64,000 nt of DNA from the NCBI RefSeq assembly GCF_900099775.1, contig NZ_FMTM01000013.1, forward strand, positions 1-64,000, read 5' to 3'. Shown here piece after piece: positions 7,810 to 45,004 of this stretch; position 1 is the first letter of the stretch; the number at the start of each line of letters is the position of its first letter. The DNA comes from Rhizobium mongolense subsp. loessense. Lineage in GTDB: Bacteria; Pseudomonadota; Alphaproteobacteria; Rhizobiales; Rhizobiaceae. The notes under the pieces were generated by a model, which saw only the letters and a program-made list of their open reading frames with translations, ran no database searches and was not told the origin of the DNA. The position numbers and the translations under genes were made by a program.

Positions 7810-7841
7810 CTTGCTCTCCTGTGTCCTAGCCGGCTTTCGGC

Positions 7842-8564: not shown

Positions 8565-8569
8565 CTATG

Positions 8570-8621
8570 TTAAGAAATCGTTGACCATGTCTACCGCGGC
8601 CATGGTTAACAAAAAGTTAAC
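8570..8621 (-). promoter_or_regulatory. CtrA-type boxes upstream of minC
   Basis: Positions 8606-8621 read TTAA, seven bases, TTAAC, an exact match to the CtrA consensus TTAA-N7-TTAAC. A second near-match (TTAA-N7-TTGAC, one mismatch) covers 8570-8585. CtrA is the cell-cycle master regulator of alphaproteobacteria and has been linked to min genes in Sinorhizobium. Binding here is inferred from sequence only; the position suits direct control of the min promoter. Confidence 0.6.
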
Positions 8622-8657
8622 AGTATTAAGAAAGGTTTGCGCAGCCGCTGGGCAATG

Positions 8658-27706: not shown

Positions 27707-28801
27707 ATGGAAATCAGCGAAATCGTCGCCGCTTACATACGTGTCCTGGCGTTGGCCGTCCTAGTCGTTTATGGCTATGCTTGGGTCATTCGCACCATCA
27801 GCCAAAGATTGATGAGGGGCGTTGCGGCAGGCCTTTTGTTTGGCCTCGGCGGCATTCTTTCCATGAACGATCCGATCGTGATGAGACCGGGGCTCATCTA
27901 TGACGCCCGGTCCATACTTCTCATTCTCTCCCCCCTCTACACGGGAGCGATTGGCACCATCATTGCCGCAGCAATGATGGGGACGCACCGTTTGGTTCTT
28001 GGCGGCGTCGGCGCGATGGGCGGCGCGGTGAGCGTCATCCTTGTGGCGCTCTGCGGCTACGCCAGCACGTTCATACCCCGTCACCGAGTCGGCACCGGCT
28101 GGCTGAGGTCGCTGTTGCTCGGTCTTGCAACGATTTCTTCATTCATCGTCCTTGTCTTTCTGCCTCCGGAGGTCGCCTGGGACCTGCTTCTGAGCGCTGC
28201 GGCTCCCGTCATGCTTGCCAACATCCTCGGCGTCCTCCTCCTTGCCGATCTGCTTGAGCGCGAAAAGCAGCGGGTCCGGATGGTGCGGGTGCTTGAGAAT
28301 GAGGCGAGCGTCGACCCTTTGACGAAGCTGCCTAATCGCCGCGTCTTCCAGCGGGCCGCCGACCGCTGCGCCGAGGAGGCGAGCAATCGCGGGCGGCCTT
28401 TCTCGATCGTTATGCTCGACGTCGACCACTTCAAAAAGATCAACGATACCTGGGGACACAATGTGGGCGACACCGTGCTTTCACGGGTCGCCGACATCAT
28501 TCGCCGGGCCGTGCGCAAGACCGATGTCGCGGCTCGCTACGGGGGCGAAGAGATCATCATTCTGCTTCCAAATACCGAAGAGGGCGACGCCTCAACCGTT
28601 GCCGAGAAGATCCGCCATGCAATCGAGTCAGAAGATTTGGTCGTCGGTGTTACCGCAATCAAGGTTACTGTCAGCATCGGCGTCGCGGTTGTCGATTCCA
28701 GCGGTACCAATATTCGTGCAACAATCGAGGCCGCAGACAGAGCGCTCTATCGCGCCAAGACGGCTGGCCGAAACCGCGTCGAACTCGCAAGAGCTGCGTG
28801 A
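27707..28801 (+). CDS. Membrane diguanylate cyclase with 5TM-LYT sensor
   Basis: The 364-residue protein has about six N-terminal membrane segments with a 5TM-5TMR_LYT pattern (SILLILSPLYTGAIGTIIAA, AMMGTHRLVLGG), then a GGDEF domain from about 200. The catalytic motif is GGEEI rather than GGEEF, a mild change at the last position. RKTD five residues before it gives an intact inhibitory site. It should produce c-di-GMP. Its sensor layout recalls the larger cyclase at 11062. It converges on the cellulose gene cluster, ending 52 bases from it. Confidence 0.9.
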   Translation: MEISEIVAAYIRVLALAVLVVYGYAWVIRTISQRLMRGVAAGLLFGLGGILSMNDPIVMRPGLIYDARSILLILSPLYTGAIGTIIAAAMMGTHRLVLGGVGAMGGAVSVILVALCGYASTFIPRHRVGTGWLRSLLLGLATISSFIVLVFLPPEVAWDLLLSAAAPVMLANILGVLLLADLLEREKQRVRMVRVLENEASVDPLTKLPNRRVFQRAADRCAEEASNRGRPFSIVMLDVDHFKKINDTWGHNVGDTVLSRVADIIRRAVRKTDVAARYGGEEIIILLPNTEEGDASTVAEKIRHAIESEDLVVGVTAIKVTVSIGVAVVDSSGTNIRATIEAADRALYRAKTAGRNRVELARAA

Positions 28802-28853: not shown

Positions 28854-31121
28854 TCAGCCCGACGTCTCTGGGCGCGTGGCTCGCTTCAGGTCGGCAAGCC
28901 CTCTGTTGGCATCCTTACTGCCAGTGGCGGCGGCCGCGTTGAATATCCGTGCGGCATCGCCAAACATTTCGAGATTCAGATAGCAATAGCCGCGCAACAC
29001 CATGAGATCGATCGTCTCGCGTTTGATCTGCGCTCGCTGATCGAGGTAGATCAGCGTCTCGCGATACCGCTTGGCTCCATAAGCGGCAAGTGCCCTGTCA
29101 GCAAGGATTGAAACCTGGAGTTCGGCTGCGCGCTCACGGCTCTGAGGCGCACGCGTTGCCGCAACGGCTGCATTATTGGACAGGCCGGCGCGCAGATAGG
29201 CGAGACTCTGTCCATAGGCGGCGTCTTCGCGCGTCTGCCGCGCAGACCCCTTCAAGGCTCTTTCGAAAGCGGCAACAGCTTCCATCGGACGATTGAGATC
29301 CATCAGGCACCAGCCGCGGCTGAGCGCGGCGTCGGGGCTGAGGAGGCTCGCATCCTTCGTGGTCGAGCAGCCGCGCGGCTTGCGGGTGCCTCGCTGCACA
29401 GTCACTGTCTCCATTGCTTCGGTTCGCACGGCCAAGCCCGGAGGCTCGGCTGCGCCTCCTCCGTAAGCCGGTTGAGTTGGCACAGCCGCACGCGCAACGC
29501 TTTGTGGAAGCCGGGCGGGCGGTTGAAGCGATGCCCCGACGGAGGACGCCGAGGGCGATGTCTCGTCAAGCGTGGCGATACGCTGAGAGCGGCCCGCCCA
29601 CAGCCGCTGGACCTCCGCGACTCCCCTGCGATCGTTCAATTGCTCACGGGTGATGGCAAGACCATAGGCGGAAGGTTCGTCGTCCGGTTTCCAACGAAGT
29701 GCCGTTTCAAACCAGCGCGCTGCAGTCTGCGGTTGATTGAGCGCGCGCGCATACCAGCCGAACTGCTGCGCGGCCGGCACGTATTTCTGCGCAATGACCT
29801 CCTTTGCCATGCGACCAAGTACGTCTTCGCTTATATTGGCGGGCGGCTGCAAAGCCATCAGATTGGCAGCAGCGGCAAGATAGGTATCGGTGGCATCCTT
29901 GGAATCGCTGCGCCACCTGTACATCACATCCTCGGCCTCTTGAGGCGCCTTGCGGGCGACAAGCGCCAGTGCCAGGCCCTGTGAGGCGGATGCCGAATCC
30001 TCCTTGGCACGGGCTGCGCGAAACCACGTCTCCGCCTCCGGCGCGTTCTCGCGTCGAAGCTGATACCAGCCGAGCAAGAGCGCATCAGAAGCGAGCCCTT
30101 GAGTTTCCGCGAGACGCGCAACACGCGATACATAGTCTGCCGCGACATCAAGCTTCGGATCGGCGTTGCCGTCAGCGACGAAGCGGCGAGCGAGCTCGTC
30201 ACGGATGCCATCGAACTCGCGCGCGCCGCTCACGGCGGGCTGCTCAAGGGCAAGCAGCCGCTGCATGGCCTGATAGGGCAGCAACGCCGAAGCCTTCTGG
30301 ACGCTCGCAAGGCGTTCCTGCGGGTTCGTGCAGTTCTTCAGGATGTAGCTGTAGGCATCTACGCTGCGCGGTTCTTTCCCTGTATGGACGAAGGCTTCGG
30401 CGACGCGCCACAAGACATCGATATCGCTGCAGGCCAGAAGGCTCGGGGTCGCAGCGCCGATCTCGATAACTGTCGCGTACTGTTTGAGGTCGGACGCATT
30501 CACAAGCCGCGCCCGGGCTTCCGCGACATCCAGGCGATCGAGCAGGTCAGCGGGCGGCTGCCAGCCGGTATCAGCCGTCCGGCGGTCGGCGATAGCTTTG
30601 CGAAGCTCTGCATAGCGCCCCTCCGCATAAAGCTGCCACATGGTTTCGAGCTGCTTATCGCCGCTTTGCGGCACAGCCAGCGGATCGGCGGGCGGCACCC
30701 AGTTCGGATAAAGCGCTTGAAGACGGGAGATTTCGGCCTGCAGGCGGACCTTGTCGCCGCGGCTTGCAAAATACCGCAGCGCGCTTTCGTCGACCTTCGG
30801 CTCAGCTGCCGGTTGCGGCGCTGTCGGCTGATCGGCCGGCTGCCCCTTATCGGCAGGCTGCGGCTGAGCCGGGGGGACGGGCGCCTGCTGAGGTTGAGGC
30901 GCCTGAGCCGTCAGCACCGGTGCCGCCTCCTGAAGACGGTCGGCGACCGCCTGGACGTCGATCGGCGGGCTGCTGGGCGTGTCCGGTTGCATCTGACGGT
31001 CCGTGTGAAGGTTCGAGCGTCCGATGCCGAATTTCTCCACCAGCGCGGCACGGTCCTTCACCCCGGTTATTACGATGGCCACCACCGCTGCAGCCGATAA
31101 TGCGATGAGGGACGACTTCAC
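28854..31121 (-). CDS. TPR protein of the cellulose synthesis cluster
   Basis: The 755-residue protein has an N-terminal membrane anchor (LIALSAAAVVAIVITGV), a Pro/Gln/Ala-rich linker (about 45-110) and many TPR-like helical repeats. In position it replaces BcsC, but it lacks a C-terminal outer-membrane barrel, so it may be a periplasmic scaffold with the export pore encoded elsewhere. The GTG at 31121 overlaps the bcsZ stop by four bases and has GGAG five bases upstream; a GTG six bases earlier is possible. It is last in the bcs operon. Confidence 0.8.
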   Translation of the reverse strand: MKSSLIALSAAAVVAIVITGVKDRAALVEKFGIGRSNLHTDRQMQPDTPSSPPIDVQAVADRLQEAAPVLTAQAPQPQQAPVPPAQPQPADKGQPADQPTAPQPAAEPKVDESALRYFASRGDKVRLQAEISRLQALYPNWVPPADPLAVPQSGDKQLETMWQLYAEGRYAELRKAIADRRTADTGWQPPADLLDRLDVAEARARLVNASDLKQYATVIEIGAATPSLLACSDIDVLWRVAEAFVHTGKEPRSVDAYSYILKNCTNPQERLASVQKASALLPYQAMQRLLALEQPAVSGAREFDGIRDELARRFVADGNADPKLDVAADYVSRVARLAETQGLASDALLLGWYQLRRENAPEAETWFRAARAKEDSASASQGLALALVARKAPQEAEDVMYRWRSDSKDATDTYLAAAANLMALQPPANISEDVLGRMAKEVIAQKYVPAAQQFGWYARALNQPQTAARWFETALRWKPDDEPSAYGLAITREQLNDRRGVAEVQRLWAGRSQRIATLDETSPSASSVGASLQPPARLPQSVARAAVPTQPAYGGGAAEPPGLAVRTEAMETVTVQRGTRKPRGCSTTKDASLLSPDAALSRGWCLMDLNRPMEAVAAFERALKGSARQTREDAAYGQSLAYLRAGLSNNAAVAATRAPQSRERAAELQVSILADRALAAYGAKRYRETLIYLDQRAQIKRETIDLMVLRGYCYLNLEMFGDAARIFNAAAATGSKDANRGLADLKRATRPETSG

Positions 31122-32164
31122 AGACACTCCGGATGTTTCTTCACGACAAGGGCCAGCCCGAGCAACTGCAGCGTGGACGGATAATAGAGCGCAGGCGAAA
31201 ACTGCCGGGCAGTCGGAGGCAATCTCTTGCCGTTGACCACACAGGCCACAACATCGTTAACAATTCGATAACCCGGGTCGGCAAGCACCGTCTTCACGCT
31301 ACCCGTGGCAAGATCGATTGTCGCCGGAGCACCATCTGCGGTCATTCCATGTTGCAGCCTGGAAAGCAGGACCTTGTCGGTAATCCCTGCCCTTGCGAGA
31401 TATAGCGGGATGCGAACAGCGTTGTAGGCGAATTCCGCATCAAAACCTTCGGCTGGTGCGGGCCGGCGGGCAAGGCTTACCCATTCAGCAGGTAGTTTGC
31501 GCGGGCCGAATTGCAGGGATTTCACGAGTGCAAGGCCGTCATCGGACAGCTTCTGCCATCGGTCCGACGGCGCAAGCAGCGCCATCACCGGGATCGCCTC
31601 GAAGATCCAGTAGGAGGGGTTGACCACCGGCCCATCCCTGCGGCCGGGTGGTGTAAAACCTTCGACGCCGGGCAACAGCAGCGTACGGCCACCGGCCTCC
31701 ACCACTGCTTCGGAAAGGAGCGCCTGGGCCATTCTGGCAGCGGCCTCAATATAATCGCTCCTGTTCCAGGAGGTGCCAGCGAGCGCAAGCGCATAGGCAA
31801 TCAGCATGTCGCCGTCCGAGGCGTTGTTGGTGTCCGTCACATGCGGTTTGGCCAAAGGGTCCCATTTCCATACAGCAAGCCCATCATCGCGCAGCAGAAG
31901 CTCAGTGCGGGTGAAATACCATATCTGCTCGAAATCGGCGGGGCTGTTGGCGAGATAGGCAAGCAACAGACCGTAACCCTGGCCCTCGCTGTGGCTGATG
32001 TTGCCGTTGCCGTTGTCGACGACACGGCCGCTCGGATCGAGAAACTGCACCTTGTAGGCGGACCATGCCTTTGGATCGACGAGCACCTGTTGGGCCTGAA
32101 GGGGTTCGACAGCAATCGCAAAAGCGAGTGCACCAGCCAGCACCGTTGCCACGATCCTCTTCAT
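31118..32164 (-). CDS. bcsZ: Cellulase of the cellulose synthase cluster (GH8)
   Basis: The 348-residue periplasmic endo-beta-1,4-glucanase has a signal peptide ending in PLQAQQ. It has the GH8 catalytic acid Glu60 in NISHSEGQGYGLLLAY and the Asp residues of ASDGDMLIAYAL near 117-119. It trims or edits nascent cellulose and is needed for proper fibril formation in related bacteria, including rhizobia (CelC). ATG 32164 overlaps the bcsB stop by four bases; the longer frame upstream belongs to bcsB sequence. Confidence 0.93.
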   Translation of the reverse strand: MKRIVATVLAGALAFAIAVEPLQAQQVLVDPKAWSAYKVQFLDPSGRVVDNGNGNISHSEGQGYGLLLAYLANSPADFEQIWYFTRTELLLRDDGLAVWKWDPLAKPHVTDTNNASDGDMLIAYALALAGTSWNRSDYIEAAARMAQALLSEAVVEAGGRTLLLPGVEGFTPPGRRDGPVVNPSYWIFEAIPVMALLAPSDRWQKLSDDGLALVKSLQFGPRKLPAEWVSLARRPAPAEGFDAEFAYNAVRIPLYLARAGITDKVLLSRLQHGMTADGAPATIDLATGSVKTVLADPGYRIVNDVVACVVNGKRLPPTARQFSPALYYPSTLQLLGLALVVKKHPECL

Positions 32165-34602
32165 TTGCCCCTGCCCAGTCTGCTCAGCATGCCCGACGTC
32201 GCCATGCCGAGGAGAATCGAAAGAACGACAAGCAGAAAGGCATAGGAGAGGATATTGGTGGAGAGCCAATTTGCGGCGATCAACCTGAAATTCGCAAGCG
32301 ACCAAGGCTGCGAGGGCACGAAGTCGAAACGCGAGACCGGCACGGTTTCGATCTCACCGGTCTTGCCCGAATAGGTGGTGATGTGTCCGGAAATTTGCGG
32401 CCAGTTGCGCTGCTCCGTCACAGCATCGATACCCTCGCGCAGGTCTCTTGCCGAGGGGGCCGTTACGACTGTCCAGGTCCCGTCGCCGGTCGGGCTGGCG
32501 CCTTGCGCAATCATCAGGCTCGCCACATTGGAGGGAGTGAAAACGGCTTCTGCTCTCGGTACAAATTGCAGCGAACTCAGCGAGATGTCGAAGTTCTCGC
32601 GCAACCACTCCTGGAACGCCGTGACCTGACCGCGCCACGCGCCGCTGCTCACCTTCGAGCGCCATTGGTCGAAAGCGGAATTGGTGTCTGGCTGGACCAC
32701 CTGCTTATCCGGCACCGGGCGCCAAGTGGCCTGGCTTGCCGTGGAGATATTCAGTTGGGACAAGACCGCCGCCGGTAATTGCGAGATGGAACCGATGAAT
32801 ACGGCCTCCTGATCACCGATCGTGCCTGGCGAAGCCGTCGGCTCGATGTTCATCGGGCGACCGGAAACAACCGCCATCTGACCAAGCAGCGTGGCCGCGG
32901 CAGAAAGCGTGTCGGCATCGATGCGGTCTATAAAGAGCGGCATCGGACCGGCAAGCCGTCCATAGGGATAGGCGGTACCGGCCATGGCGGCAAGATTGGG
33001 ACGCTGCCCGACGCGGGCGAAATCCGGCATGCGGAACTCAGTCGTATCGAACAAGGCAAAGCGCGCCGTGGTCGAGGCGGTCGCACCGGGCACACATATC
33101 TTGTCATCGCTCGTCGTGAGGATTGCTTCAAGACTGAGTGAATTGAGGCCCGGCTTGAAGTGGCGCATGGCCACGCGGATCGGCAGGTGACGGAGGATGC
33201 CGCCGCCGGTCCCGGTAATCGGCATCGTCGAGGCGATATTGCCGTTGACATAGATGTCGATATGGCTGCCGGGAAGGACGCTGCCGGTATAGGCTGCGTC
33301 CAGCAGAACCGTCGCTTCCCCATAGGCATTCGCATAGAAGTCGGAAGGAACCGCGACATTGAAGTTCGTCCGAAAACGCCGACCGGAAAACTCTGTCGTC
33401 TTCACGCCCAGATCGGCAAATGTAAGCTGCGTGTCCTGGAGTATCAACGGTGCGTTGGGCGCGCTCCAGCGCTCGGTGGTCAGCGCATCGCGCCTGATGC
33501 CCGGGGCACGATCAGTCGGGGAGACGATGGTATCGATGGCCGAGGAGATTGCCTGCCACGAAGGGCCACTAATCAGGAGCACGGGCGAGCCAGTACGCGG
33601 GTCGGTGACGAATGTCGCAAGAGCTGCGGACTGAGCCGCCGGTGGCAGGTCTGGAAAATAGGGCTGCAGCTCGGAAGTCGTGCCGACGAGAACGGTAAGC
33701 TTGCCGGGACCGGCTGCCGGCAGCGTGTCGACGCTGAAGGAGATGGATTGGTTCGGCATACCACTCAGCACGGAGAGCCCCTGTGCGAGGCGAAGCAGCG
33801 GCTTCGTCGTGCCAGGCTGCTCAAGGGCTGGAACGAGGAGGTCGAATTCCGTTCTACCGGATCCGTCGACGCCGACCGCACGGATGGCATCCGTGCTTGA
33901 CAGCTTTGCAGCGTCTTGCCCTTCGAAGCTCAGATGGGTCTGCGCAGGATCGATATTGGACCAGAGCTCATAAGTCGACTGGATCGTGCAATCCGTGCGG
34001 TGGCGCTGGCTTGCCTCGAAGGTCAAAAGATTTGCGCCGGGCTGTAACAGACCACGCGGAACATCGAAGCTGACTTGGGAGGGTGCGTCGGGTGAGCCGA
34101 TCTGCTTTTGACCGATCGGACGGTTGTTGATGAGCACGGTGATCTGCGAGGATTCCGGCGCAACGACGATGGAATTCTGGTAGGCGAAATTGAATTTTGC
34201 CGGCGCGCCTGCCTGTTCTGGAGTGAGGTAGACGCTCCACGACTTTCGGTCGAATTCGCCCTCCAGACCGAATTTGTCGAAGGGAACGACGTAGCGGCGC
34301 ATGCCGCCGGCCGTCCCCGCCGGGGTGCCGGCAAACTGGGCGGCTTGCGGCCGAGCGGAATTTGCAGAGCCGCGAAAAGATGGGGAAGGTATCGGCGGAG
34401 CGGCAGGGATGGACGGTGCGGCTGGAACCGTAACAGGCGGTGTCACCGTCGGAGCAGGCAATGTCAGGCGCGGCACCATGGGATGAAGACCGGCCGGGCG
34501 CTCAGGCGACATGTCAAAGGGCGCAGGCGCCTGTGCAGTCTGAGCCCAGGTGAGCGGCGAGGTGCTGATGAGAAACAGTGCAGCGGCAAGACCCGTCCTC
34601 AT
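32161..34602 (-). CDS. bcsB: Cellulose synthase regulatory/periplasmic subunit BcsB
   Basis: The 813-residue protein has a signal peptide (LAAALFLISTSPLTWAQTAQ), a Pro-rich N-terminal segment, two carbohydrate-binding-like domains (for example NRPIGQKQIG and VPRGLLQPGANLLTFEA) and a C-terminal membrane anchor (about 785-805) that packs against BcsA. BcsB guides the emerging glucan through the periplasm and is required for catalysis. Its ATG overlaps the bcsA stop by one base (TGATG) and its own stop overlaps bcsZ, so translation is coupled along the operon. Confidence 0.95.
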   Translation of the reverse strand: MRTGLAAALFLISTSPLTWAQTAQAPAPFDMSPERPAGLHPMVPRLTLPAPTVTPPVTVPAAPSIPAAPPIPSPSFRGSANSARPQAAQFAGTPAGTAGGMRRYVVPFDKFGLEGEFDRKSWSVYLTPEQAGAPAKFNFAYQNSIVVAPESSQITVLINNRPIGQKQIGSPDAPSQVSFDVPRGLLQPGANLLTFEASQRHRTDCTIQSTYELWSNIDPAQTHLSFEGQDAAKLSSTDAIRAVGVDGSGRTEFDLLVPALEQPGTTKPLLRLAQGLSVLSGMPNQSISFSVDTLPAAGPGKLTVLVGTTSELQPYFPDLPPAAQSAALATFVTDPRTGSPVLLISGPSWQAISSAIDTIVSPTDRAPGIRRDALTTERWSAPNAPLILQDTQLTFADLGVKTTEFSGRRFRTNFNVAVPSDFYANAYGEATVLLDAAYTGSVLPGSHIDIYVNGNIASTMPITGTGGGILRHLPIRVAMRHFKPGLNSLSLEAILTTSDDKICVPGATASTTARFALFDTTEFRMPDFARVGQRPNLAAMAGTAYPYGRLAGPMPLFIDRIDADTLSAAATLLGQMAVVSGRPMNIEPTASPGTIGDQEAVFIGSISQLPAAVLSQLNISTASQATWRPVPDKQVVQPDTNSAFDQWRSKVSSGAWRGQVTAFQEWLRENFDISLSSLQFVPRAEAVFTPSNVASLMIAQGASPTGDGTWTVVTAPSARDLREGIDAVTEQRNWPQISGHITTYSGKTGEIETVPVSRFDFVPSQPWSLANFRLIAANWLSTNILSYAFLLVVLSILLGMATSGMLSRLGRGK

Positions 34603-36791
34603 CAGCCGTTCGCCTTTGCCATCTGCTGCTGCGCTTCGCGCTCCGGCCGCATGCTGCGGAAGAAATAAATGAGCCCGCGGCTTGTCTGATACAGCGATAG
34701 GCCAAGGAACCAGATGGTACCGCGGATGAGGCCCGGATTACGGCGGCGCGATTCCTGAAACTGCGCCCATTGATCGGAATTGGCAAAGATCAAATCGGCG
34801 ATCAGGCGATGATCAAGCGCGCTCTTCGGGATATACTGGCAGCCGACAGCCATGATATCGCCGTCCTGTTCCATGTTGCGAACGACGAGCGGCAGAGTTT
34901 CGAGGTCAGCACCGCTGTAAGGGCGGAAGCGGATTTCGCCTTCGGCGCCGATCGTCATGGGGTCGAGCTGCTTGTTGAAGACATGGAGACGCGCTCCGTG
35001 AACCGAGACGTCCTCGATCGAGGCGGTATGCCATTTGCCGTTGACGCCGAATTCGCAGCGCCGATTGACTCGCACACGCCGCGAAGCGGCACGCTCGCCG
35101 CGCTCCGACACCACGCCAAGCGCGCAGCCTGCCATGATGAGATTGATAAGGTTCCACCCGCCGACAACGAGCGTGACATCCGCCTTGTAGGGCTCGGCAT
35201 AGATGCGATAGATCGTGATGGCGAGCGCAATGAGCTGCACGGCAAATATAACGAAAAAGGGCCTGCTGATTTCCGAAAGGCGGCTGACCGAAATCGATTC
35301 GTCCTTTGCCGTGACCTTGAAGGTTGGTTTTCGTGGATTGATCATGACGGAAATGACGGCAGGTAAGAGGTGGACTGTCTGCACATACTCGTAAAGTTCC
35401 GAAATCCACGGCCAGCGGAACGAACCATAAAGATAGTTCTGCATCATCAGGTTCACGAGCATATAGGCAAGCGTATAGGCCAGAAACTCGCCGCCGGAGG
35501 CTGTGAATATTTCAAGGTCGAAGAACAGATAGAAGAGCGGCGCGAACAGGAAGATCGTCCGCGGGAACGGGAAGAGCCAGAACAGCGTCGAGGACATGTA
35601 ACAAAGGCGCTGGGGAATCGACAGGCCGCGCTTTAAGAGCGGAAACCGAAAGCGCAGGATCTGCATCATGCCTTGCGCCCAGCGGCTGCGTTGGCCGATG
35701 AAACTTGCGAAGGTGGCGGGCTGCAGACCGGCGATCAGCGGCTTGTCGACATAAATGCTGTTCCAGCCCGCGCCATGCAACGCCAATGCGGTCTCACAGT
35801 CTTCAGTGATGCTGATGCCGCTAAAGCCATTGGTGGATTGCAGGGCGCGACGGCTGAGAACTGCGGCCGAGCCACAGAAGAAGGCAGCGTTCCATTTATC
35901 GAGACCCCGCTGGATGATGCCGTAAAACATCTCATTTTCACTCGGCATCCTGTCGAAAGTGCGCAAATTGCGCTCCAACGGATCCGGATTGATGAAGAAG
36001 TGCGGCGTTTGCACGAGGAAGAGCTTCGGGTCGTCGTCGAAATAGCCGACCGTCTCGCGCAGGAAGTCCCGGGCGGGCGCGTGGTCAGCGTCGAAGACAG
36101 CGATGAGCTCGCCCGTCGAATGCTGCATGCCGTTGTTGAGATTGCCCGCCTTGGCATGTTCATTGCGCTCGCGCGTCAGGTAATTGACGCTGAGTGCCTC
36201 GCAGAGCTGCCTCAGTTCATTGTGCCGCGCAATGGCGGCCTGGGCTTCGAGCAACTTGTTGGAGTTGCGTTTTTGCAGCGTGCCGCCATCATCCAGGAGC
36301 CAGACATGCAGTTTATCGGCCGGATAATCCATTGCTTTTGCGGCAGCGAGCGTATTGCCGAGGAGATGGGCGTCTTCGTTATAGGTAGGCACGAAGACGT
36401 CGACATGCGGAAACCGCCCTTCCTTGACAGGGCGCGACCGGCGCGGCGGAAGTGGAGTCGCGACGATGAAGAGGCTGAGCGCCAGCATGGCGATGCTGTA
36501 CATTTCGGCAAGATAGAGCAGCAGCCCGGGAATGAAGTTTTCGAGCTGATTGATGGGTGGCAGCGTATTCGTCGTGCGCCAATAGGCATAGCGCAGAACG
36601 ACGGCAGTGCCGAAGGCAAGCGCGATCAGGCGCCATGTGCCCTCCCCCTTCAAGATCTTGATTATCGCCATGATCGTGACGACGGTGATACTGGCAATAA
36701 GCTGAGTCTGCAGGTTCACCGGCAACGTGATCAATACGAAGACGCAGAGCGAAACGATCGCCCAGGTGAAGATGCTTCGAGCCTTATGCAT
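34602..36791 (-). CDS. bcsA: Cellulose synthase catalytic subunit BcsA with PilZ domain
   Basis: The 729-residue processive GT2 glycosyltransferase makes beta-1,4-glucan from UDP-glucose and exports it. The motifs are VFVPTYNED, DADHAP (near 234), TEDCETAL (near 327) and QRSRW (near 367), with about eight membrane segments. A C-terminal PilZ domain (RVNRR near 573, DVSVHGARL) binds c-di-GMP and releases autoinhibition. ATG 36791 has AAGGG seven bases before it; the frame opens ten codons earlier without such a site. It follows bcsN by 53 bases. Confidence 0.96.
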   Translation of the reverse strand: MHKARSIFTWAIVSLCVFVLITLPVNLQTQLIASITVVTIMAIIKILKGEGTWRLIALAFGTAVVLRYAYWRTTNTLPPINQLENFIPGLLLYLAEMYSIAMLALSLFIVATPLPPRRSRPVKEGRFPHVDVFVPTYNEDAHLLGNTLAAAKAMDYPADKLHVWLLDDGGTLQKRNSNKLLEAQAAIARHNELRQLCEALSVNYLTRERNEHAKAGNLNNGMQHSTGELIAVFDADHAPARDFLRETVGYFDDDPKLFLVQTPHFFINPDPLERNLRTFDRMPSENEMFYGIIQRGLDKWNAAFFCGSAAVLSRRALQSTNGFSGISITEDCETALALHGAGWNSIYVDKPLIAGLQPATFASFIGQRSRWAQGMMQILRFRFPLLKRGLSIPQRLCYMSSTLFWLFPFPRTIFLFAPLFYLFFDLEIFTASGGEFLAYTLAYMLVNLMMQNYLYGSFRWPWISELYEYVQTVHLLPAVISVMINPRKPTFKVTAKDESISVSRLSEISRPFFVIFAVQLIALAITIYRIYAEPYKADVTLVVGGWNLINLIMAGCALGVVSERGERAASRRVRVNRRCEFGVNGKWHTASIEDVSVHGARLHVFNKQLDPMTIGAEGEIRFRPYSGADLETLPLVVRNMEQDGDIMAVGCQYIPKSALDHRLIADLIFANSDQWAQFQESRRRNPGLIRGTIWFLGLSLYQTSRGLIYFFRSMRPEREAQQQMAKANG

Positions 36792-36844
36792 CGACGTCCC
36801 TTCAAAAGCATGGCCGGGCATTGCGGCGCCGGGCTATGCGTTTC

Positions 36845-37807
36845 CTATCTTCGGCACGCGGCCGTCATGGCCGCATCGCCTATGCAGTCGGGGGAAGGCA
36901 CGGTGATGCCTGCCTTCGCCGCTTGTTGAACGGGGCCCGGAGCGGGCATCGGATCGGTATTGGCCCCTGGCGTTTCGATCGCTGGGTCCGGCAGCGGTAC
37001 GCGCACCCCAATCGGCGCGGGCACAGGCGCTATTGCCGGCGCCTTGACCTGACGTGGCTGACGGCGGAGGGCCGCCGGGGCCGGTTCGTAGCCGATCTCA
37101 ATGGCGCCAGCGCGGTGGCCGCCGTCGTCCGGGTAAACAGGGCTGCCGGCGCGGCCGAGAACTTCATCGGCGCCTTTTACCTCGCCGTAAGGATTCCATA
37201 TCTCGCCATTGAGCGTGCCGGTGACCGTATAGCCATACATGACGCTTAAGAGCTGACGCTCGCTGGCGCGCGCGTCGCAAAGGCGAAGCCGCACCTGGAT
37301 CATACCGAAATTGCGCGCTTGCGTATGTGCCGCCTGGCTCGATCGGATCTGCTGCCAGCCATAAAGGCAGGTATCGCCGGCGCTGCTGCGACCCGAGGCA
37401 TAGGCGAACGGCCCATAGCTGTTTTGCAAGAAGGTGTTGTTCCTCGCCATCGCAACACCCGGCGCAGCCGCGAATGCTTCGCGAGAAATTCCCCTTTCGC
37501 TGATCATCTTGTAGGCGGCGCCTCCCGCCCCCGGATTGGACCCACTTGCCCCATAGAATTGCACTTTCAGGAAATTCTGCCCCCGCACGGAAGAGGACGT
37601 ATAGAGCGAAAGCATCTGCTCCACGCCATTGCCGCGCCTGGTTTCGACGACACTTACGATGGCCGGGCCACCGGGGGGCGGAAGAATGAGTGCCTTTTCA
37701 CTGGCCACCGTCTCGGGCGCCGAGGGCTGCCTGACGCTGCCGCTCGTCGACGCACAGCCAGCCAACAAGGCCGCGGTGACCACCGATATCAACCCCAGCA
37801 AGCGCAT
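36845..37807 (-). CDS. bcsN: Cellulose biosynthesis lipoprotein BcsN
   Basis: The 320-residue protein has a lipoprotein signal (MRLLGLISVVTAALLAGC) with the lipobox LAGC, a core with YTSSSVRGQNFLKVQFYG and TCLYGWQQI, and a Pro-rich C-terminus. BcsN is found at the head of rhizobial cellulose clusters; its precise role is not established, although an envelope location is clear. I chose the start at the lipoprotein signal; in-frame ATG 37846 and TTG 37861 would add a polar extension. It is first in the bcsN-A-B-Z-TPR operon. Confidence 0.85.
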   Translation of the reverse strand: MRLLGLISVVTAALLAGCASTSGSVRQPSAPETVASEKALILPPPGGPAIVSVVETRRGNGVEQMLSLYTSSSVRGQNFLKVQFYGASGSNPGAGGAAYKMISERGISREAFAAAPGVAMARNNTFLQNSYGPFAYASGRSSAGDTCLYGWQQIRSSQAAHTQARNFGMIQVRLRLCDARASERQLLSVMYGYTVTGTLNGEIWNPYGEVKGADEVLGRAGSPVYPDDGGHRAGAIEIGYEPAPAALRRQPRQVKAPAIAPVPAPIGVRVPLPDPAIETPGANTDPMPAPGPVQQAAKAGITVPSPDCIGDAAMTAACRR

Positions 37808-37891
37808 TTTAGGTGCCGCCGCAAAATCGTCTTTCCAGATATCCATCGGCACTGCGCGCAATGGATGTTCGAATCAACGACCGCCCGGCCG

Positions 37892-38315: not shown

Positions 38316-40007
38316 ATGCCGGAAAATCGTGCGAATTGGCCTGAGCCGGCTCCGCAGAAGTCCGAATTCGGCAGCCGCGCCGAGGGGCTGTTTTCGCTGT
38401 GGGATCACGATCTCAGGCTTATCGACTGGTCTGAAATGCTCAAGGAGCGCCTGAACCTTTCTGACGAGGCGCCCATAATTTTGGGGAATGTATACCCCGA
38501 CCTGGCAAATCCCGATCTCGCTGCCCTCGTTCAGCTCGTCGTCAATAGCGGCAAACCGCGGACCATTCGTCTCGGGGCGAGCGAATCCGACCGGCGCAAT
38601 CTGCTATTGTTCCAGGCCAGGGCCGGCCTTGCGATCGTCGAATTTGGCGGCGCTGACAATAATGAGACCGCAAGAGCGCAAGAGCTGGACCGGGCGTTAC
38701 TCCTTCACCAGGCGACCCATGACGTTTTGACCGGGCTTCCCAATCGCCGCCAATTCAGCGACAAACTGGGAAATATTCTCCCAGTTCATGCAAAGGCGGG
38801 CCTTGCACTGATGCAGATCGATCTGGACGATTTCAAACCCGTCAACGATACGCTGGGCCATGGAGCCGGGGATATCGTCCTAAAACTTGCGGCCGAGAGG
38901 ATTCGAAAGGCGCTTGGTAAAGACGAGACCGCCTACCGCCTTGCAGGCGACGAGTTCGCCGTCATACAGATCGCCCGCGAGCAGCCGGATGAAGCCGAAA
39001 GACTAGCAGAATCGCTGATCAGCGAATTTCGCAAGCCCTTCACGGTGGACGGAATTACCGTATTTGTCGGTGCCAGTATCGGCGTTGCAATTGCACCTCG
39101 CGACGGCAATGAGAGCGAGCAGTTGATGAAGGCTGCCGATGTTGCCCTTTATGCCGCCAAGAAGGACGGACGCCGGCGCGCGCGGACCTTTAATCCGAGC
39201 ATGCTGCAGGTGCTGGAACAGCGAGAAGTGTTGAGACGGAGCCTTCGGGTCGCGCTGCAACACCGTGAATTCTTTATCGAATATCAGCCGCTGGTCGATC
39301 GGTCGTTGGCGATAGCCGGCTTCGAAGCACTGCTGCGCTGGCGCCACCCGATCCTCGGAGTGATCTCACCGATCGCTTTTATCCCGATGGCGGAATCAGA
39401 CGGCCTTATGAGCGAAATAGGTCAATGGGTACTGGAAGAGGCGTGCCGGGAGGCTTTGACCTGGCCGGCCCACTATACTCTTGCGGTAAACCTATCTCCC
39501 GCCGAATTTTTAACCCCAGGTCTGACCGACCGAGTGTCCCAAACCCTCGACGTCGTTGGACTGCCCTCGGAGCGCTTGGAGCTCGAGATCACCGAAACCG
39601 TGCTGCTGGAGCGCACGATCAACAATCTTGATACCCTGAACACGCTCAACGTGCTTGGCATCCAGATTTCCCTCGATGACTTCGGGACCGAGTATTCCTC
39701 TTTGAGTTATCTGAAGAACTTCCCCTTCGATAACATCAAGATAGACAAGTACTTTATCAACGACCTGCCTGATGATCAGAAGAGCCAGACCATCGTGCGC
39801 TTCGTCATCGCGATGGCCCATGGGCTTGGCATGCGCGTGACTGCCGAAGGCGTCGAGACGGCCGAACAGGCCGCCTGGCTGCAGGCAGAGGGATGTGACC
39901 GGTTGCAAGGCTATTTCCTGAGCCCTCCTTTGGGGGCCGACATGGTTGATGAATTTATTCGCAAGCACGCTGACACGGGACCCGATAATGATCAGGTCAA
40001 ATCCTGA
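38316..40007 (+). CDS. PAS-like GGDEF-EAL protein, probable c-di-GMP phosphodiesterase
   Basis: The 563-residue soluble protein has an N-terminal PAS-like segment (LFSLWDHDLRLIDWSEML), a GGDEF domain whose motif is AGDEF, and a complete EAL domain (GFEALLRWRHP, NLSPAEF, LEITETVLLE, LDDFGTEYSS, NIKIDKYFI, TAEGVETAEQ). The EAL half should hydrolyse c-di-GMP. The altered GGDEF motif may be weak or serve as a GTP sensor. AAGGAGGG precedes the ATG. It leads the partner-switching operon (34 bases to the next gene) and is divergent from the c-di-GMP-activated cellulose cluster, so it may lower the signal for that pathway. Confidence 0.92.
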   Translation: MPENRANWPEPAPQKSEFGSRAEGLFSLWDHDLRLIDWSEMLKERLNLSDEAPIILGNVYPDLANPDLAALVQLVVNSGKPRTIRLGASESDRRNLLLFQARAGLAIVEFGGADNNETARAQELDRALLLHQATHDVLTGLPNRRQFSDKLGNILPVHAKAGLALMQIDLDDFKPVNDTLGHGAGDIVLKLAAERIRKALGKDETAYRLAGDEFAVIQIAREQPDEAERLAESLISEFRKPFTVDGITVFVGASIGVAIAPRDGNESEQLMKAADVALYAAKKDGRRRARTFNPSMLQVLEQREVLRRSLRVALQHREFFIEYQPLVDRSLAIAGFEALLRWRHPILGVISPIAFIPMAESDGLMSEIGQWVLEEACREALTWPAHYTLAVNLSPAEFLTPGLTDRVSQTLDVVGLPSERLELEITETVLLERTINNLDTLNTLNVLGIQISLDDFGTEYSSLSYLKNFPFDNIKIDKYFINDLPDDQKSQTIVRFVIAMAHGLGMRVTAEGVETAEQAAWLQAEGCDRLQGYFLSPPLGADMVDEFIRKHADTGPDNDQVKS

Positions 40008-40041: not shown

Positions 40042-40557
40042 TTGACGAACCAAGAAGCGGCAATTGGCCCTACATTTGACCAGTTGCTCAGTCTGAAGAT
40101 GGACATGGCGAGCTTTACCGCCGACTGGCTGCATTGCGATCAGTTGTCCAACTATGTCGCTCGAATGGTCAGCCATGACCGTCGCGATCCCGTGCGCCAT
40201 TCCAACCTGCTGTCCTCAGCCCTTAACGAGCTCCTGGAGATGTCGTTTCGCTCAGAGGCGGATGATGGTGACTTCGTATGTAATTTTTATCGCTGTCAGC
40301 AGACCGAGCGCATCGAGCTGATCTTTCCTTGCCCGCCAGAACAGCGACAATTCTACAAGAAGATTGTCCTGGGACTAAAAACCGGCCAGGCCCTTAAAAA
40401 TTATTGCAACTTGATCACCAGCGATGCCGCCTCCGATGGCCAGGCGATCCTGCTTGGCCTGGTTGTGAACTATGACGCGGAAATCCAGATCCGCGATTTT
40501 GGTATCGGCGCACTTGCATTCATTGTGGATCTGCCGCTCGAAAGGCTACTGAATTGA
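40042..40557 (+). CDS. Degenerate HATPase-like partner-switching protein
   Basis: The 171-residue protein starts at TTG 40042 after a strong GAGGAGGTG. It aligns by eye with the HATPase-like protein at 44094: NELLEMSF (62-69) matches that protein's [10 protein letters not shown], and SDGQAILLGLVVNYDAEI (131-148) matches its [19 protein letters not shown]. The second Asn of the N-box is Met and the glycine loop is lost, so ATP binding is doubtful. I infer a pseudokinase that binds a STAS partner without phosphorylating it. It overlaps the STAS-methyltransferase gene by four bases (TTGA). Confidence 0.7.
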   Translation: MTNQEAAIGPTFDQLLSLKMDMASFTADWLHCDQLSNYVARMVSHDRRDPVRHSNLLSSALNELLEMSFRSEADDGDFVCNFYRCQQTERIELIFPCPPEQRQFYKKIVLGLKTGQALKNYCNLITSDAASDGQAILLGLVVNYDAEIQIRDFGIGALAFIVDLPLERLLN

Positions 40558-41732
40558 CTGCACAAAGTCCTTCGCCTGTCTTTACAGCGCAATTCAACAT
40601 CAACGATCAGGAATTCTCCCTCGCTGGCGTGCTTCGCCCTCATTCCACGGCTGAAATTGCCGACGATCTCTTGTTGCTGCGAAATGGAATCGAGACCGTC
40701 AGCGGTGTTTTATACGTCAATCTAAAGCGCGTTACGCATATGAACAGCACGGCATTTCGTGCCTTGACGCGGGTTTTGGTCGATGCTTCGCGTTCAAGGC
40801 CCGAAATCAAATTCGTGGTCGTCGCATCAAGCGTTGTCGCCTGGGCGGCACGGATGTTCCGGCATTTGAGCGATCTATCGCCGAACATTGCGATCGAGAT
40901 CTACGACTCGGCTTTTTATCCCGGCCAGACATTCGTTGAAAACCAAAGCTTCATTCCAATCCTCAGAACGCAGACGAAGATGACGTGGCGGCATGAGCGA
41001 GAGATATTGCCGCGCCATGGGCTTCGCAACGGCATGGTGATTGCCGACATCTGTTGCGGCATTGGCGATTTCGCGATGCTGGTCAGAAAGGAGTTCGGCC
41101 CAGCAAGGATCGTTGCGCTAGATCATTCCTCGCCAAGCCTCGACTATGCCCGTGATGTTGCCGAAAGGTTCGATGTCCGCGATATTGAATACACCTACGG
41201 CGATGCATCGCAGATGCTGTTTGAAAGCGACCAGTTCGATTTCGTGACCTGCCGGCACTCGTTGCAAATCTTCGATCGCCCCGAAATGCTGCTCAGGGAG
41301 CTCTATCGGATCTGCAAACCTGGCGGCCGGGTTTACATCACCAACGAGAAAAACTCCCATTGCCTCGGAGAACCGCGCGCCGACAGCATCCAATGGACCT
41401 ATAACGAGGTTGCCAAGCTCTTCAGTTATTTCGACATGGACGTCGAAATGGGACCAAAGAACTTGCGTCTTTTGCTGGATGCGGGCTTCGAGGCGGTGAA
41501 AATGGAAAGCTTCATGGTCACCAACCTCGACGGCGATCCCCAGGAGTTCGCAGACGTCATCGCGGCATGGCGAGATGTCTACGCAGGCGAAATGTCTGTC
41601 CGTAGAGGCGATTCGGCGGAATTCATCGAACGTTTCAGACAAGGATTCGCCGACCATATCTTTGCGGCGCTTCATCCAAAGGGCTACGCCGGCTGGCCCA
41701 TTTGGGCAGCGTCCGGGCGAAAGCCGCTATGA
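40554..41732 (+). CDS. STAS domain fused to a SAM-dependent methyltransferase
   Basis: The 392-residue protein combines an anti-sigma-antagonist-like STAS domain (about 1-125) and a class I methyltransferase (about 145-300). The STAS segment VNLKRVTHMNSTAFRALTRV places Ser65/Thr66 where SpoIIAA-type proteins are phosphorylated. The methyltransferase shows motif I (ADICCGIGDFAM, 164-175), an acidic motif II end (VALDHSS) and the post-I region FDFVTCRHSLQIFDRPE. A phospho-switch could therefore gate a methylation reaction; the substrate is unknown. The start is TTG 40554, inside the stop of the previous gene; the stop overlaps the PP2C gene by four bases. Confidence 0.85.
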   Translation: MTAQSPSPVFTAQFNINDQEFSLAGVLRPHSTAEIADDLLLLRNGIETVSGVLYVNLKRVTHMNSTAFRALTRVLVDASRSRPEIKFVVVASSVVAWAARMFRHLSDLSPNIAIEIYDSAFYPGQTFVENQSFIPILRTQTKMTWRHEREILPRHGLRNGMVIADICCGIGDFAMLVRKEFGPARIVALDHSSPSLDYARDVAERFDVRDIEYTYGDASQMLFESDQFDFVTCRHSLQIFDRPEMLLRELYRICKPGGRVYITNEKNSHCLGEPRADSIQWTYNEVAKLFSYFDMDVEMGPKNLRLLLDAGFEAVKMESFMVTNLDGDPQEFADVIAAWRDVYAGEMSVRRGDSAEFIERFRQGFADHIFAALHPKGYAGWPIWAASGRKPL

Positions 41733-44089
41733 TGACCGCGCCGATCAGGAAGCCAAGCCTCGGTTTGCGCTCTTTTCGCGCGAAATTCATGATCGTTGTC
41801 GGTGGGGCGGTCCTATTTGACCTGCTTGTCAGCGGCGGTCTCGCCCTTTGGAATGTCCAGCGACTTTCTCGGGATGCGACGGCCGAAGTGGGTCACGGCC
41901 TTGAACGGGCAAGCCAAGACTATATCCGCTCGTATACCGATTCCACCGCCGCGCAGGTTGGCTTGCTTCTCCATCAGGTCCATTCCGACGTCAAGGCGTT
42001 GACAGGCGTGCTTCAGGGTCAGATCGATCAACCAACGAGGAACGGAGAGATTGGAGCCGCCATGGCAAGGGCAGCTCCAGGTGCGGTGACCGTAAGATTC
42101 GACCCCAAAGGTCAATGGGCGCAGAACCTTCCAGGGGCGCCGTCGGTCGTCAGCGTATGGGGCTACCTCCTGGACAAGGATCGCCATCCGCTGCCGCAGG
42201 TGCAGACCGATATCGAGACGAGTGCGGTCCTTGATCTTGTCGCCCCCGACCTCCTGAAAAACGGTGCATCGAAGCTGCAGATGTACTATATCGGGCCGAA
42301 AGAGCGCCCGATCTTCAGGACGGCACCTTATACAGATCAAGCACAGACGTTCGATCGGCTTTATCCCGGTCACAACAGCGCAGACTTTTGGGATTTCTTC
42401 TTTCCCGGTCTTTATGAATCCTGGCAGAAATGGGCAAGCGACCCTTCCTTGCGGCCGGTACCTGACAATATCACCCAGACCGCTCCCTATACCGACGCAA
42501 TCACGGGAAAACTGATCGTCAGCTTCTTCCATCCGCTTTGGACTGCCGATCGGCGTAGCGTGGCGGGGGCTGCCGGAGCAGACATCACGCTTGACCAGCT
42601 CGCCGAAATTGTCGAGCGCGTGAAGGTCGCCGAAAGCGGCTTTGGCTTTCTAACCATGTCGGACGGCAACGTCGTTGCAATCAACCCTGCCGGGGAAAAA
42701 ATTATCGGTCTTCGCTCGGCGAGCGACGCCACGAACAAGGGCGTGACCGGCCTTGACCGCTCTTTACGCAACAGTTCGCAAAAGGAGGTCGCCTCACTCC
42801 CGCTTGATGCCGATGGCGTCATAAGGCACATTTCGCTGAAGGAGAACGGCGAAGACGTTCCTTATCTTGTCGTTACAAAACAGCTAAACGCAACCAATCT
42901 TTGGATAAACGGACCGGTTCAGCGCGAGGTCATGTCGCTCGGCATCGTTGTCCCCGAGCGTGAAATCTATGCCTCCCTCACTGCCGCCAGGGATCAAATA
43001 TCGCGGGCAACCAACCGAATTCTGATTTATCAGATCCTCGCGGTTCTCGTGTCGATGCTCGTCGTCACGGGGGCGGTCTTTGCGGCGTCAAAGCGTATTA
43101 CAAGCGGGATCAGTGCACTGGCGGGTGCCGCCAAGCGCATACAGGCAAAGGATTATTCTGTCAGAGTCGATATACCCACCAAGGACGAAGTTGGCGAGGC
43201 TGGTCACGCGTTCAACCGCATGGCCGAGGAGATCAGCTTCCATACCGAAAATCTCGAGAACCTGGTTGCTGAGCGCACGCAGGAAATTGAGGCGGCCAAA
43301 GAAGAAATCTCGATCCTGAACGGCCAGTTGACGAGCGAGAACCTGCGCCTCGGTGCCGAACTGGATGTGGCTCGGCAGATTCAGCTTATGGTGCTGCCAC
43401 GGGCGAAAGAGCTTGCGGCCATCGAGCAGTTGGAGATTGCCGCCTATATGCGCCCCGCCGACGAGGTCGGCGGCGACTACTACGACATCCTGCAAAACGG
43501 AGATCACCTGAAGATAGGCATCGGCGACGTGACCGGTCACGGCCTCGAAAGCGGTGTTTTGATGCTTATGGTGCAGTCCGTCGCCCGCGCGCTGCAGGAA
43601 GCCGGCGAAACGAATCCCTCAAGGTTCCTCAGTTACCTCAACCGCACGATCTACAAGAACATCGAGCGCACGAAAACCGACAAGCACGTCACGCTGTCAT
43701 TTCTGGACTATGATGGCGAGCGATTGACGATTTCGGGCCAGCATGAGGATCTGATCGTCATTCGTCATTCCGGTGCGGTCGAACGGATCGACACCAGCGA
43801 CCTCGGCCTACCAGTGGGACTTGAATCTGATATATCGTCTTTCATCGATACCCGCGAAATACCCTTTCACAAGGGCGATTTGATTGTTCTTCATACCGAT
43901 GGCGTCACCGAGGCTGAAAATCCCGAAGGAGAACTGTACGGCATCGAGCGGCTTTGCGAAAACGCCCGCCGCCTGCACGGTCAAACAGCTGAGCAGGTGA
44001 TGAACGGCATTCTCGAAAGCCTCATGGCCTATATCGGAACGCAAAAGATACATGATGACATTACGCTCGTCGTAGTGCGGCACAGGTGA
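41729..44089 (+). CDS. Membrane PP2C (SpoIIE/RsbU-type) phosphatase with dCache and HAMP
   Basis: The 786-residue receptor has a membrane segment (about 20-41), a large extracellular dCache-like sensor (45-430), a second membrane segment (430-452), a HAMP domain and coiled coil (to about 540), and a PP2C/SpoIIE domain. Metal-binding residues are present: DEVGGDYYD (near 577-585), GDVTGHG (near 599), LHTDGVTEAE (near 721) and HDDITLVVV (near 775). It should dephosphorylate the STAS proteins of this operon when its ligand is sensed. ATG 41729 overlaps the previous stop in an ATGA junction; an adjacent ATG 41732 is equivalent. Confidence 0.92.
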   Translation: MMTAPIRKPSLGLRSFRAKFMIVVGGAVLFDLLVSGGLALWNVQRLSRDATAEVGHGLERASQDYIRSYTDSTAAQVGLLLHQVHSDVKALTGVLQGQIDQPTRNGEIGAAMARAAPGAVTVRFDPKGQWAQNLPGAPSVVSVWGYLLDKDRHPLPQVQTDIETSAVLDLVAPDLLKNGASKLQMYYIGPKERPIFRTAPYTDQAQTFDRLYPGHNSADFWDFFFPGLYESWQKWASDPSLRPVPDNITQTAPYTDAITGKLIVSFFHPLWTADRRSVAGAAGADITLDQLAEIVERVKVAESGFGFLTMSDGNVVAINPAGEKIIGLRSASDATNKGVTGLDRSLRNSSQKEVASLPLDADGVIRHISLKENGEDVPYLVVTKQLNATNLWINGPVQREVMSLGIVVPEREIYASLTAARDQISRATNRILIYQILAVLVSMLVVTGAVFAASKRITSGISALAGAAKRIQAKDYSVRVDIPTKDEVGEAGHAFNRMAEEISFHTENLENLVAERTQEIEAAKEEISILNGQLTSENLRLGAELDVARQIQLMVLPRAKELAAIEQLEIAAYMRPADEVGGDYYDILQNGDHLKIGIGDVTGHGLESGVLMLMVQSVARALQEAGETNPSRFLSYLNRTIYKNIERTKTDKHVTLSFLDYDGERLTISGQHEDLIVIRHSGAVERIDTSDLGLPVGLESDISSFIDTREIPFHKGDLIVLHTDGVTEAENPEGELYGIERLCENARRLHGQTAEQVMNGILESLMAYIGTQKIHDDITLVVVRHR

Positions 44090-44093
44090 TGAC

Positions 44094-44648
44094 ATGACAA
44101 CGGTCCTTTATGGCCAAGAGCATCTCGCTTCGTTTGACGCGACGCACGCCGTTCAGCTGCGGCTGCTCGATGGCCCGCTTGAACTTGCCTGGAAACACTC
44201 CAGTATGACGTCGGATTTCATCGCCGAGATGATGGCGCTCCGATTTCGACCTTCGAAGCGGCGCTATAATCAGGTCCGACAGGATATCGGCTACCTGACG
44301 AACGAACTGATCGAAAACGCCATCAAGTTTCGTGCTCCAGGCGAGATCGCGATCGAAGCCATGGCGGAAGACGACAACTTTAAGATGAGGATATCGAATT
44401 TTATCGACAGGCAGACGGCAGCCAGGTTCCAGCGGTTGCTGTCGAGCATAACGCAAGGAGACCCGAGCGATCTTCTCATCCAGCAGATCGAGGCGAGCGC
44501 TAAAACGGCCGGCAGCGGTTCCGGATTAGGATTGCTGACCTTGATGAGCGACTACAAGGCAGACCTGGCTTGGCTCTTCGAGGAGGACCGCCCCCACAAC
44601 CGCGCAAAACTTGAAACATACGCCGCAATGCCAATTTCACCGTCATGA
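44094..44648 (+). CDS. HATPase-like anti-sigma-type kinase (slr1658-like)
   Basis: The 184-residue protein has the histidine-kinase-type ATP fold used by SpoIIAB/RsbW-like serine kinases: N-box [14 protein letters not shown] (Glu71, Asn75) and glycine box GSGSGLGLL (140-148). Proteins of this type, named after cyanobacterial slr1658, occur beside STAS proteins. It is the probable kinase that phosphorylates the STAS protein encoded next and perhaps the STAS-methyltransferase. It starts four bases after the PP2C gene ends and overlaps the next gene by four bases. Confidence 0.8.
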
Positions 44649-45004
44649 ACCGCGAGAAAAGTGCTATGGAAATCAGAGAAGAAGCGTTCCGCGTCTGGTC
44701 CGAGGGCGGTACCGTTTATTTTGACGGAACCATGCGGCTGGCAGGCCCGGATGCCTACGCACCCATTCATGCTTTGGCCATGAAAGCGCTCGAAGAGGGG
44801 GCCGGTAAGGCCACTTTCGACGTGACCGGACTTCAATTCTTGAACTCGTCAGGTATAAACCTGCTTGCCAAATTGACGATCGAGGCTCGCAACCACCCGG
44901 ACATTCATTTGACCGTACGCGGTTCTTCCCAAGTCCCGTGGCAGATCAAATCATTGCCCAACCTCAAGAAGTTGCATCCAGGCGTGGATCTGCGGCTGAC
45001 CTGA
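44645..45004 (+). CDS. STAS-domain anti-sigma-antagonist-like protein (slr1659-like)
   Basis: The 119-residue protein is a single STAS domain: [16 protein letters not shown], then [20 protein letters not shown]. Ser68/Ser69 lie at the usual phosphorylation site (NSSG in place of the common DSSG). It would be phosphorylated by the upstream kinase-like protein and reactivated by the PP2C receptor. ATG 44645 sits in the ATGA overlap; an in-frame ATG 21 bases later is possible. It is the last gene of the operon; the following 250 bases show no gene. Confidence 0.82.

Follow-up and report, generated by a model that had tools for sequence, protein, structure and literature searches.

Gene organisation of the cluster

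The window analysed here is a stretch of 64,000 nucleotides from Rhizobium mongolense subsp. loessense (contig NZ_FMTM01000013.1, positions 1 to 64,000), and it contains a cluster of six genes on the plus strand encoding a GGDEF-EAL protein and the phosphatase, kinase-like and STAS components of a partner-switch module. One of the STAS proteins is fused to a methyltransferase dependent on S-adenosylmethionine (SAM). The annotation is based on Pfam and NCBIfam profile searches of the six cluster proteins, with scores compared with the curated cut-offs. The genes are listed below; the Bgr names refer to the system of Sinorhizobium meliloti discussed further on.

38316..40007, + strand: GGDEF-EAL protein, probable BgrR; first gene of the cluster (Pfam GGDEF 143 bits, EAL 246 bits)
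40042..40557, + strand: A, probable BgrS; kinase-fold protein without ATP site, probably a pseudokinase-like adaptor
40554..41732, + strand: B, probable BgrT; STAS domain (about residues 1-115) and class I SAM methyltransferase (about 140-392)
41729..44089, + strand: C, probable BgrU; membrane dCache-HAMP-PP2C phosphatase
44094..44648, + strand: D, probable BgrW; kinase of the slr1658 superfamily with N-box and SGLGL box intact
44645..45004, + strand: E, probable BgrV; STAS protein of the slr1659 superfamily with a conserved NSSG motif

The original prediction had recognised a partner-switch module of five overlapping genes, and the module itself is borne out by the components found. The open reading frames A to E occupy positions 40042-45004; neighbouring frames overlap by 4 bases at A/B, B/C and D/E, but C and D are separated by a gap of 4 bases, and a sixth gene, the one encoding the GGDEF-EAL protein, whose stop codon lies 34 bp before A, had been missed. 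Translation of C probably starts at the ATG at 41729, in an ATGA overlap with the stop codon of B, rather than at the TTG at 41702. Terminator and promoter scans of the locus performed no better than on shuffled sequences. The absence of an encoded sigma factor was correctly noted, as the six proteins gave no Pfam match to one at E values up to 1.

Domain composition and conserved residues

Residue conservation was followed in a set of 81 rows (the window and 80 near loci, the best of 188 relatives found by scanning a genome collection with B), in eight distant loci (L103-L110) and in 17 further loci (L168-L184). For B, two sets of 120 proteins were used in addition: a near set, being the best of 974 homologues, and a distant set, being the best of 949 found for the B protein of L103.

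The predicted sensor PP2C phosphatase is found in C, a membrane HAMP-PP2C protein (SpoIIE 141.5 bits, HAMP 46.7 bits) with a weak dCache_1 match (31.4 bits, under the cut-off of 45), in which the PP2C motifs are kept. Its best PDB sequence match is 6k4e, a ‘Putative serine phosphatase’ that is presumably SiaA, given that SiaC is 6K4F. D belongs to the slr1658 superfamily (NF047703, 180.1 bits, cut-off 100) and retains the N-box Asn, N75, in 80 of 80 rows; this residue is also found in the distant loci (8/8 and 17/17), in some of which the SGLGL box is altered (SRLGL in L110; SGLGI in L168, L173 and L175). A PDB sequence search with D gave a best E value of 0.15. E is a member of the slr1659 superfamily (NF047705, 124.6 bits, cut-off 100), its conserved part beginning at an inner ATG (MEI..., about 44666). 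Its Pfam matches up to E = 1 are to STAS models alone, two in number and each under the cut-off, and a PDB sequence search returned STAS proteins (best E 0.011). The NSS motif of E is present in all 77 rows that reach it, the 3 other rows being trimmed before the motif, and in the distant loci (8/8 and 17/17).

Two HATPase-like proteins had been predicted, which holds for D and, as far as the fold is concerned, for A. The predicted structure of A is a HATPase-type fold similar to SiaB, SpoIIAB and RsbW, with structural matches that include a SiaB chain; A is a weak relative of slr1658 (33.8 bits, under the cut-off of 100) and is related to D by hhalign. However, the N-box Asn of A is missing from all 81 rows, from the distant loci (0/8 and 0/17) and from the homologues (0/120), and the G2 box is lacking as well. 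The ratio of nonsynonymous to synonymous substitution rates (dN/dS) of A is 0.15-0.20 in three pairs. A PDB sequence search with A found 0 matches. From its motifs and modelled fold, A is a probable pseudokinase-like adaptor without an ATP site. In public records A is called ‘ubiquinone biosynthesis methyltransferase UbiE’, a name that neither the sequence nor the predicted fold supports; a methyltransferase function of A was rejected on the lack of any Pfam methyltransferase match at E up to 1 and on the predicted kinase-type fold.

The two STAS proteins of the original prediction, one of them fused to a methyltransferase, were both recovered. The methyltransferase of B is of class I (PF13649, 68.9 bits, cut-off 27), and its N-terminal STAS domain matches the slr1659 model at 38.4 bits, under the cut-off of 100, and is related to E (hhalign 96.6%). 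Residues D165, G169, G171, D190, D217 and H235 of the SAM site are kept in 239-240 of 240 homologues and are changed in one protein only. The dN/dS of B is 0.04-0.08 and that of the methyltransferase part 0.03-0.07 in three pairs, the synonymous sites being near saturation in the L011 pair. By dN/dS and by invariant alignment columns, few parts of the cluster are under as much constraint as the methyltransferase domain over its whole length, C-terminal region included, which suggests catalysis.

Probable identity with the Bgr system of Sinorhizobium meliloti

The module had been described as matching no characterised system, a view that no longer stands. Plasmid pSymB of S. meliloti 1021 carries counterparts of all six genes in the same order (458865-465606), with 50-76% identity, the GGDEF-EAL protein being 64% identical to its counterpart. 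The genome of S. meliloti 4H41 contains one SpoIIE phosphatase gene, located inside the orthologous cluster, and pSymB of strain 1021 likewise contains one.

A partner-switching system of S. meliloti, BgrRSTUWV, was reportedly described by Baena et al. in 2019 (doi 10.1111/1462-2920.14624). According to two citing papers, BgrSTUWV controls the cyclase BgrR, while BgrU and BgrW form a phosphatase/kinase couple acting on BgrV, and the system governs mixed-linkage beta-glucan (PMC8457831, PMC7647112). These roles (U phosphatase, W kinase, V STAS protein, R cyclase) agree with C, D, E and the GGDEF-EAL gene, and R-S-T-U-W-V provides one letter for each of the six genes. Given this agreement another locus is hardly to be expected, and the cluster was therefore filed as the Rhizobium bgr operon; from gene content and order it is very probably the orthologue of S. 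meliloti bgrRSTUWV. The two loci share a phosphatase, a kinase, a STAS protein and a cyclase encoded together, but differ in their surroundings: the window cluster is divergent from a cellulose operon, whereas in S. meliloti 1021 some 53 kb of pSymB separate the cluster from the bgsA homologue.

The original prediction took the methyltransferase for the output and overlooked the obvious one, the neighbouring GGDEF-EAL protein. The GGDEF motif of this protein reads AGDEF in 81 of 81 rows and the EAL signature residues are mostly kept, so that a phosphodiesterase or dual role may be considered.

Conservation and distribution

A genome survey had been proposed for the STAS-methyltransferase fusion. 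Genes A to E are complete in 79 of the 80 near loci, the remaining one (L028) being cut by a contig end inside C. Together with the dN/dS of B, this conservation is far beyond chance. In 78 loci the six genes share one strand and one order, and the median gap between the GGDEF-EAL gene and A in these loci is about 100 bp (from tblastn matches). The nearest named record is that of R. mongolense USDA 1844 (L008; 99% over B). In Ensifer aridi LMR001 two copies of the cluster occur (L053 and L054), one of which, L054, has the GGDEF-EAL gene inverted, and a Rhizobium jaguaris plasmid (hit H17) has B in two places.

In a sample of the order, 9 of 249 genomes contain B. In the class sample, 3 of 289 genomes exceed the slr1658 cut-off, and these are also the ones with full-length B, while 12 gave a match of any kind at E up to 0.001; the one methyltransferase-only match (L111, genome G154) has no other switch-protein match within 18 kb. 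In the phylum sample the slr1658 cut-off is exceeded in 7 of 398 genomes, 6 of them being the 6 with B. The seventh, another pseudomonadote (L139), encodes at 4485-9140 a GGDEF protein, slr1658 and slr1659 members, a PstS-like periplasmic protein and a PP2C phosphatase, with no match to B; its GGDEF protein scores 148 bits with the SiaD model, under the cut-off of 290.

Clusters without a GGDEF-EAL gene

Five of the eight distant loci have A to E and no GGDEF-EAL homologue within 17-19.5 kb (E up to 0.01), and the 17 further loci have A to E in order (17/17) and no GGDEF-EAL match (0/17, E up to 1e-4); in both cases the absence refers to the fetched stretch, the rest of those genomes not having been searched for GGDEF or EAL. 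The 17 loci comprise 12 of family f199 and 5 of family f76, the latter outside the order; judging by names, f199 is probably Roseibium-like and f76 Rhodospirillales-like. In two sets of genomes B was found in 24 of 81 and 7 of 28, and its context was compared for 13 of the 24 and for all 7. The motifs of D and E are kept in the 22 loci without GGDEF-EAL, as are those of C in the 5 of the 22 that were looked at. With these 22 loci, the idea that the GGDEF-EAL protein is essential to the module was rejected. A second PP2C-like gene lies upstream of A on the opposite strand in L103 (where it scores 129 bits with SpoIIE), L104, L105 and L107 and in 12 of the 17 further loci.

In a tree of B and C (40 rows, quick method, root not inferred), the 18 rows with GGDEF-EAL all fall on one side of a branch with a value of 99, so one change suffices to account for the presence or absence of this gene. 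Because rows from outside the order are among those without it, a gain of GGDEF-EAL rather than a loss is suggested.

Proposed mechanism and alternative explanations

Overall, the cluster is best explained, with somewhat better than even confidence, as a Rhizobium bgr switch acting on cyclic di-GMP (c-di-GMP) and beta-glucan, with a methyltransferase side branch formed by A and B. In this scheme C would sense a periplasmic signal and dephosphorylate the STAS protein E, which D would phosphorylate. The state of E would determine how active the GGDEF-EAL protein is. In turn, c-di-GMP would activate a beta-glucan synthase, probably that of the divergent cellulose operon here and the one for mixed-linkage glucan in S. 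meliloti. The duplicated second pair, A and the STAS domain of B, would constitute the side branch, in which the dead kinase A, with its SiaB/RsbW-type fold, would grip the STAS domain of B. E may compete for A (or D), and its phosphorylation state would therefore decide the amount of free B. Every binding or release step in which A or B takes part is conjectured, as are the signal, the sense in which E acts and the methyl substrate. The relationships of A to D and of the STAS domain of B to E support the pair duplication, and the L139 cluster, which combines GGDEF, slr1658, slr1659 and PP2C genes without B, also counts in favour of this explanation, as do two links to the matrix: the bgsA homologues flanking 14 of the 80 loci and the divergent cellulose operon of the window.

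In an alternative closer to the original prediction, the STAS domain of B would itself be a substrate of the kinase D and of the phosphatase C, the phosphate on B switching methylation. Thr66 of B aligns with Ser69 of E and is retained in 79 of 81 rows (the exceptions being L033 with Met and L081 with Ala), in all 120 near homologues and in L108, one of the distant loci. In the distant homologues, however, the position holds Ile, Val or Leu in 117 of 120 and Thr in 3. The proven phosphosite of SiaC is, in the available text of PMC7647112, the residue after an Asn (T68 in LLYLNTSSIK), and both STAS positions of B were therefore counted; the one aligned with Ser68 of E is mostly Asn (93/120 near, 118/120 distant). 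Ser or Thr at either position is found in 120 of 120 near and 5 of 120 distant homologues, and in none of the 22 loci without GGDEF-EAL, although the motifs of D and E, and in the 5 loci looked at those of C, persist there. Loss of the acceptor is not strictly tied to loss of GGDEF-EAL, since four loci have the latter and no acceptor (L033, L081, L106 with Leu and L110 with Ala). Phosphorylation of the STAS domain of B was rejected as a general switch, and the phospho-gated methylation originally envisaged is weakened accordingly; as an account of the cluster it is quite unlikely. The proposal that B, or A with B, is an upstream second input, sensing a metabolite or SAM and using its STAS domain to sequester D or to act on the GGDEF-EAL protein, is unlikely too, if a little less so. 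An unphosphorylatable STAS domain would be a permanent rival of E for D, and the nearly invariant SAM-site residues fit ligand binding as well as catalysis, but the constraint on the methyltransferase domain suggests, without proving, that it is catalytic. Control of a sigma factor encoded elsewhere, with the local genes as accessories, is very improbable.

Several points weigh against the favoured c-di-GMP switch with its A-B side branch. The predicted structure covers A alone and not an A-B complex. The bgr names were given by gene order and role rather than by locus tag, the letters S and T for A and B being tentative. The phosphatase search in S. meliloti was confined to the SpoIIE type, to the 4H41 genome and, for strain 1021, to pSymB. 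Genes of the bgs or bcs type adjoin the cluster in only a minority of loci, most loci having other neighbours, and the uniform Thr66 of the near homologues could reflect direct phosphorylation of B in Rhizobiaceae.

In the 22 loci without GGDEF-EAL, the conserved cluster offers no candidate enzyme output other than the methyltransferase, which may be a regulated output. It can be tentatively supposed, as something possible rather than likely, that the module originally served, and in general still serves, to control the methyltransferase: the dead anti-sigma-type kinase A would hold B, whose STAS domain would be locked in an unphosphorylatable, binding-competent state, E, a STAS protein phosphorylated in the ordinary way, would displace B, and an enzyme would take the place of the sigma factor, the c-di-GMP branch having been added once, in the Rhizobiaceae/Phyllobacteriaceae line. 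Should the methyltransferase prove to be the main client, methylation would be under the control of a partner switch, an arrangement not described in the accessible portions of the open-licence literature searched.

Comparison with other partner-switching systems

SiaABCD of Pseudomonas aeruginosa likewise combines a phosphatase and a kinase with a GGDEF protein and a small protein switched by phosphorylation, according to excerpts of PMC7647112 and PMC8457831, and A matches the SiaB chain structurally; however, E is a STAS protein whereas SiaC is DUF1987, and the available part of PMC7647112 mentions no methyltransferase. Membership in this family was rejected, as D scores 21.7 bits against a SiaB cut-off of 85, C scores 129.9 against a SiaA cut-off of 700, and the STAS protein is not DUF1987. 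The scores of D and E above their superfamily cut-offs link the cluster to slr1658/slr1659 of Synechocystis, for which no STAS-methyltransferase is described in the excerpts of PMC7555055. In HsbR-HsbA-HsbD of P. aeruginosa a cyclase is similarly influenced by the phosphorylation state of a STAS-type protein, which connects two partner switches, but the route runs via the response regulator HsbR, and no methyltransferase is described in the available text (PMC6482189, PMC8457831, PMC7647112). Unlike RsbUVW/SpoIIAB, the window cluster encodes no sigma-factor client by Pfam.

An operon that had seemed novel is thus tied to a characterised rhizobial c-di-GMP switch and placed beside a cellulose operon. 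The puzzle is why such a switch includes a methyltransferase under strong constraint together with a dead kinase, and why both are kept by relatives with no GGDEF-EAL gene beside them. The accessible open-licence literature on partner switching and anti-sigma antagonists yielded no methyltransferase fusion linked to STAS or to a partner switch, and the methyltransferase branch of the known switch is under-explained.

Cellulose and beta-glucan genes around the cluster

The cluster is flanked in the window by genes of a divergent cellulose operon.

36845..37861, - strand: bcsN, divergent neighbour and start of the cellulose operon (PF17038, 253 bits)
28854..36821, - strand: bcsA, bcsB, bcsZ and a TPR gene (CelA 945 bits, over the cut-off; BcsB 212 bits; Glyco_hydro_8 155 bits)

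BcsA of the window contains a PilZ domain (40 bits). At the far end of the operon, a diguanylate cyclase with five transmembrane helices and a GGDEF domain (170 bits) is encoded at 27707-28801 (+). Among the 80 near loci, bcs genes orthologous to those of the window, intact or broken, were found in two (L008 and L009); in the latter, from Rhizobium sullae, the only matches next to the cluster (4402-5304) were fragments corresponding to bcsN and to the TPR gene.

For 14 of the 80 loci, the flanking sequence retrieved contains a homologue of bgsA, the mixed-linkage glucan synthase gene. The query was the S. fredii gene of L045, to which the other 13 are 78-94% identical. Its assignment as BgsA is a probable one, based on 87% identity to the pSymB gene and on an adjoining HlyD-type gene; the bgsA tag given in the excerpt of PMC9495663 is SM_b20391. 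Four arrangements occur: upstream and divergent in 10 loci, upstream on the same strand in L055, downstream on the opposite strand in L031 and L054, and downstream on the same strand in L079. Curlin-like genes and an HD-GYP gene were each found in 2 of the 80 loci, and both are also present in the plasmid locus L144.
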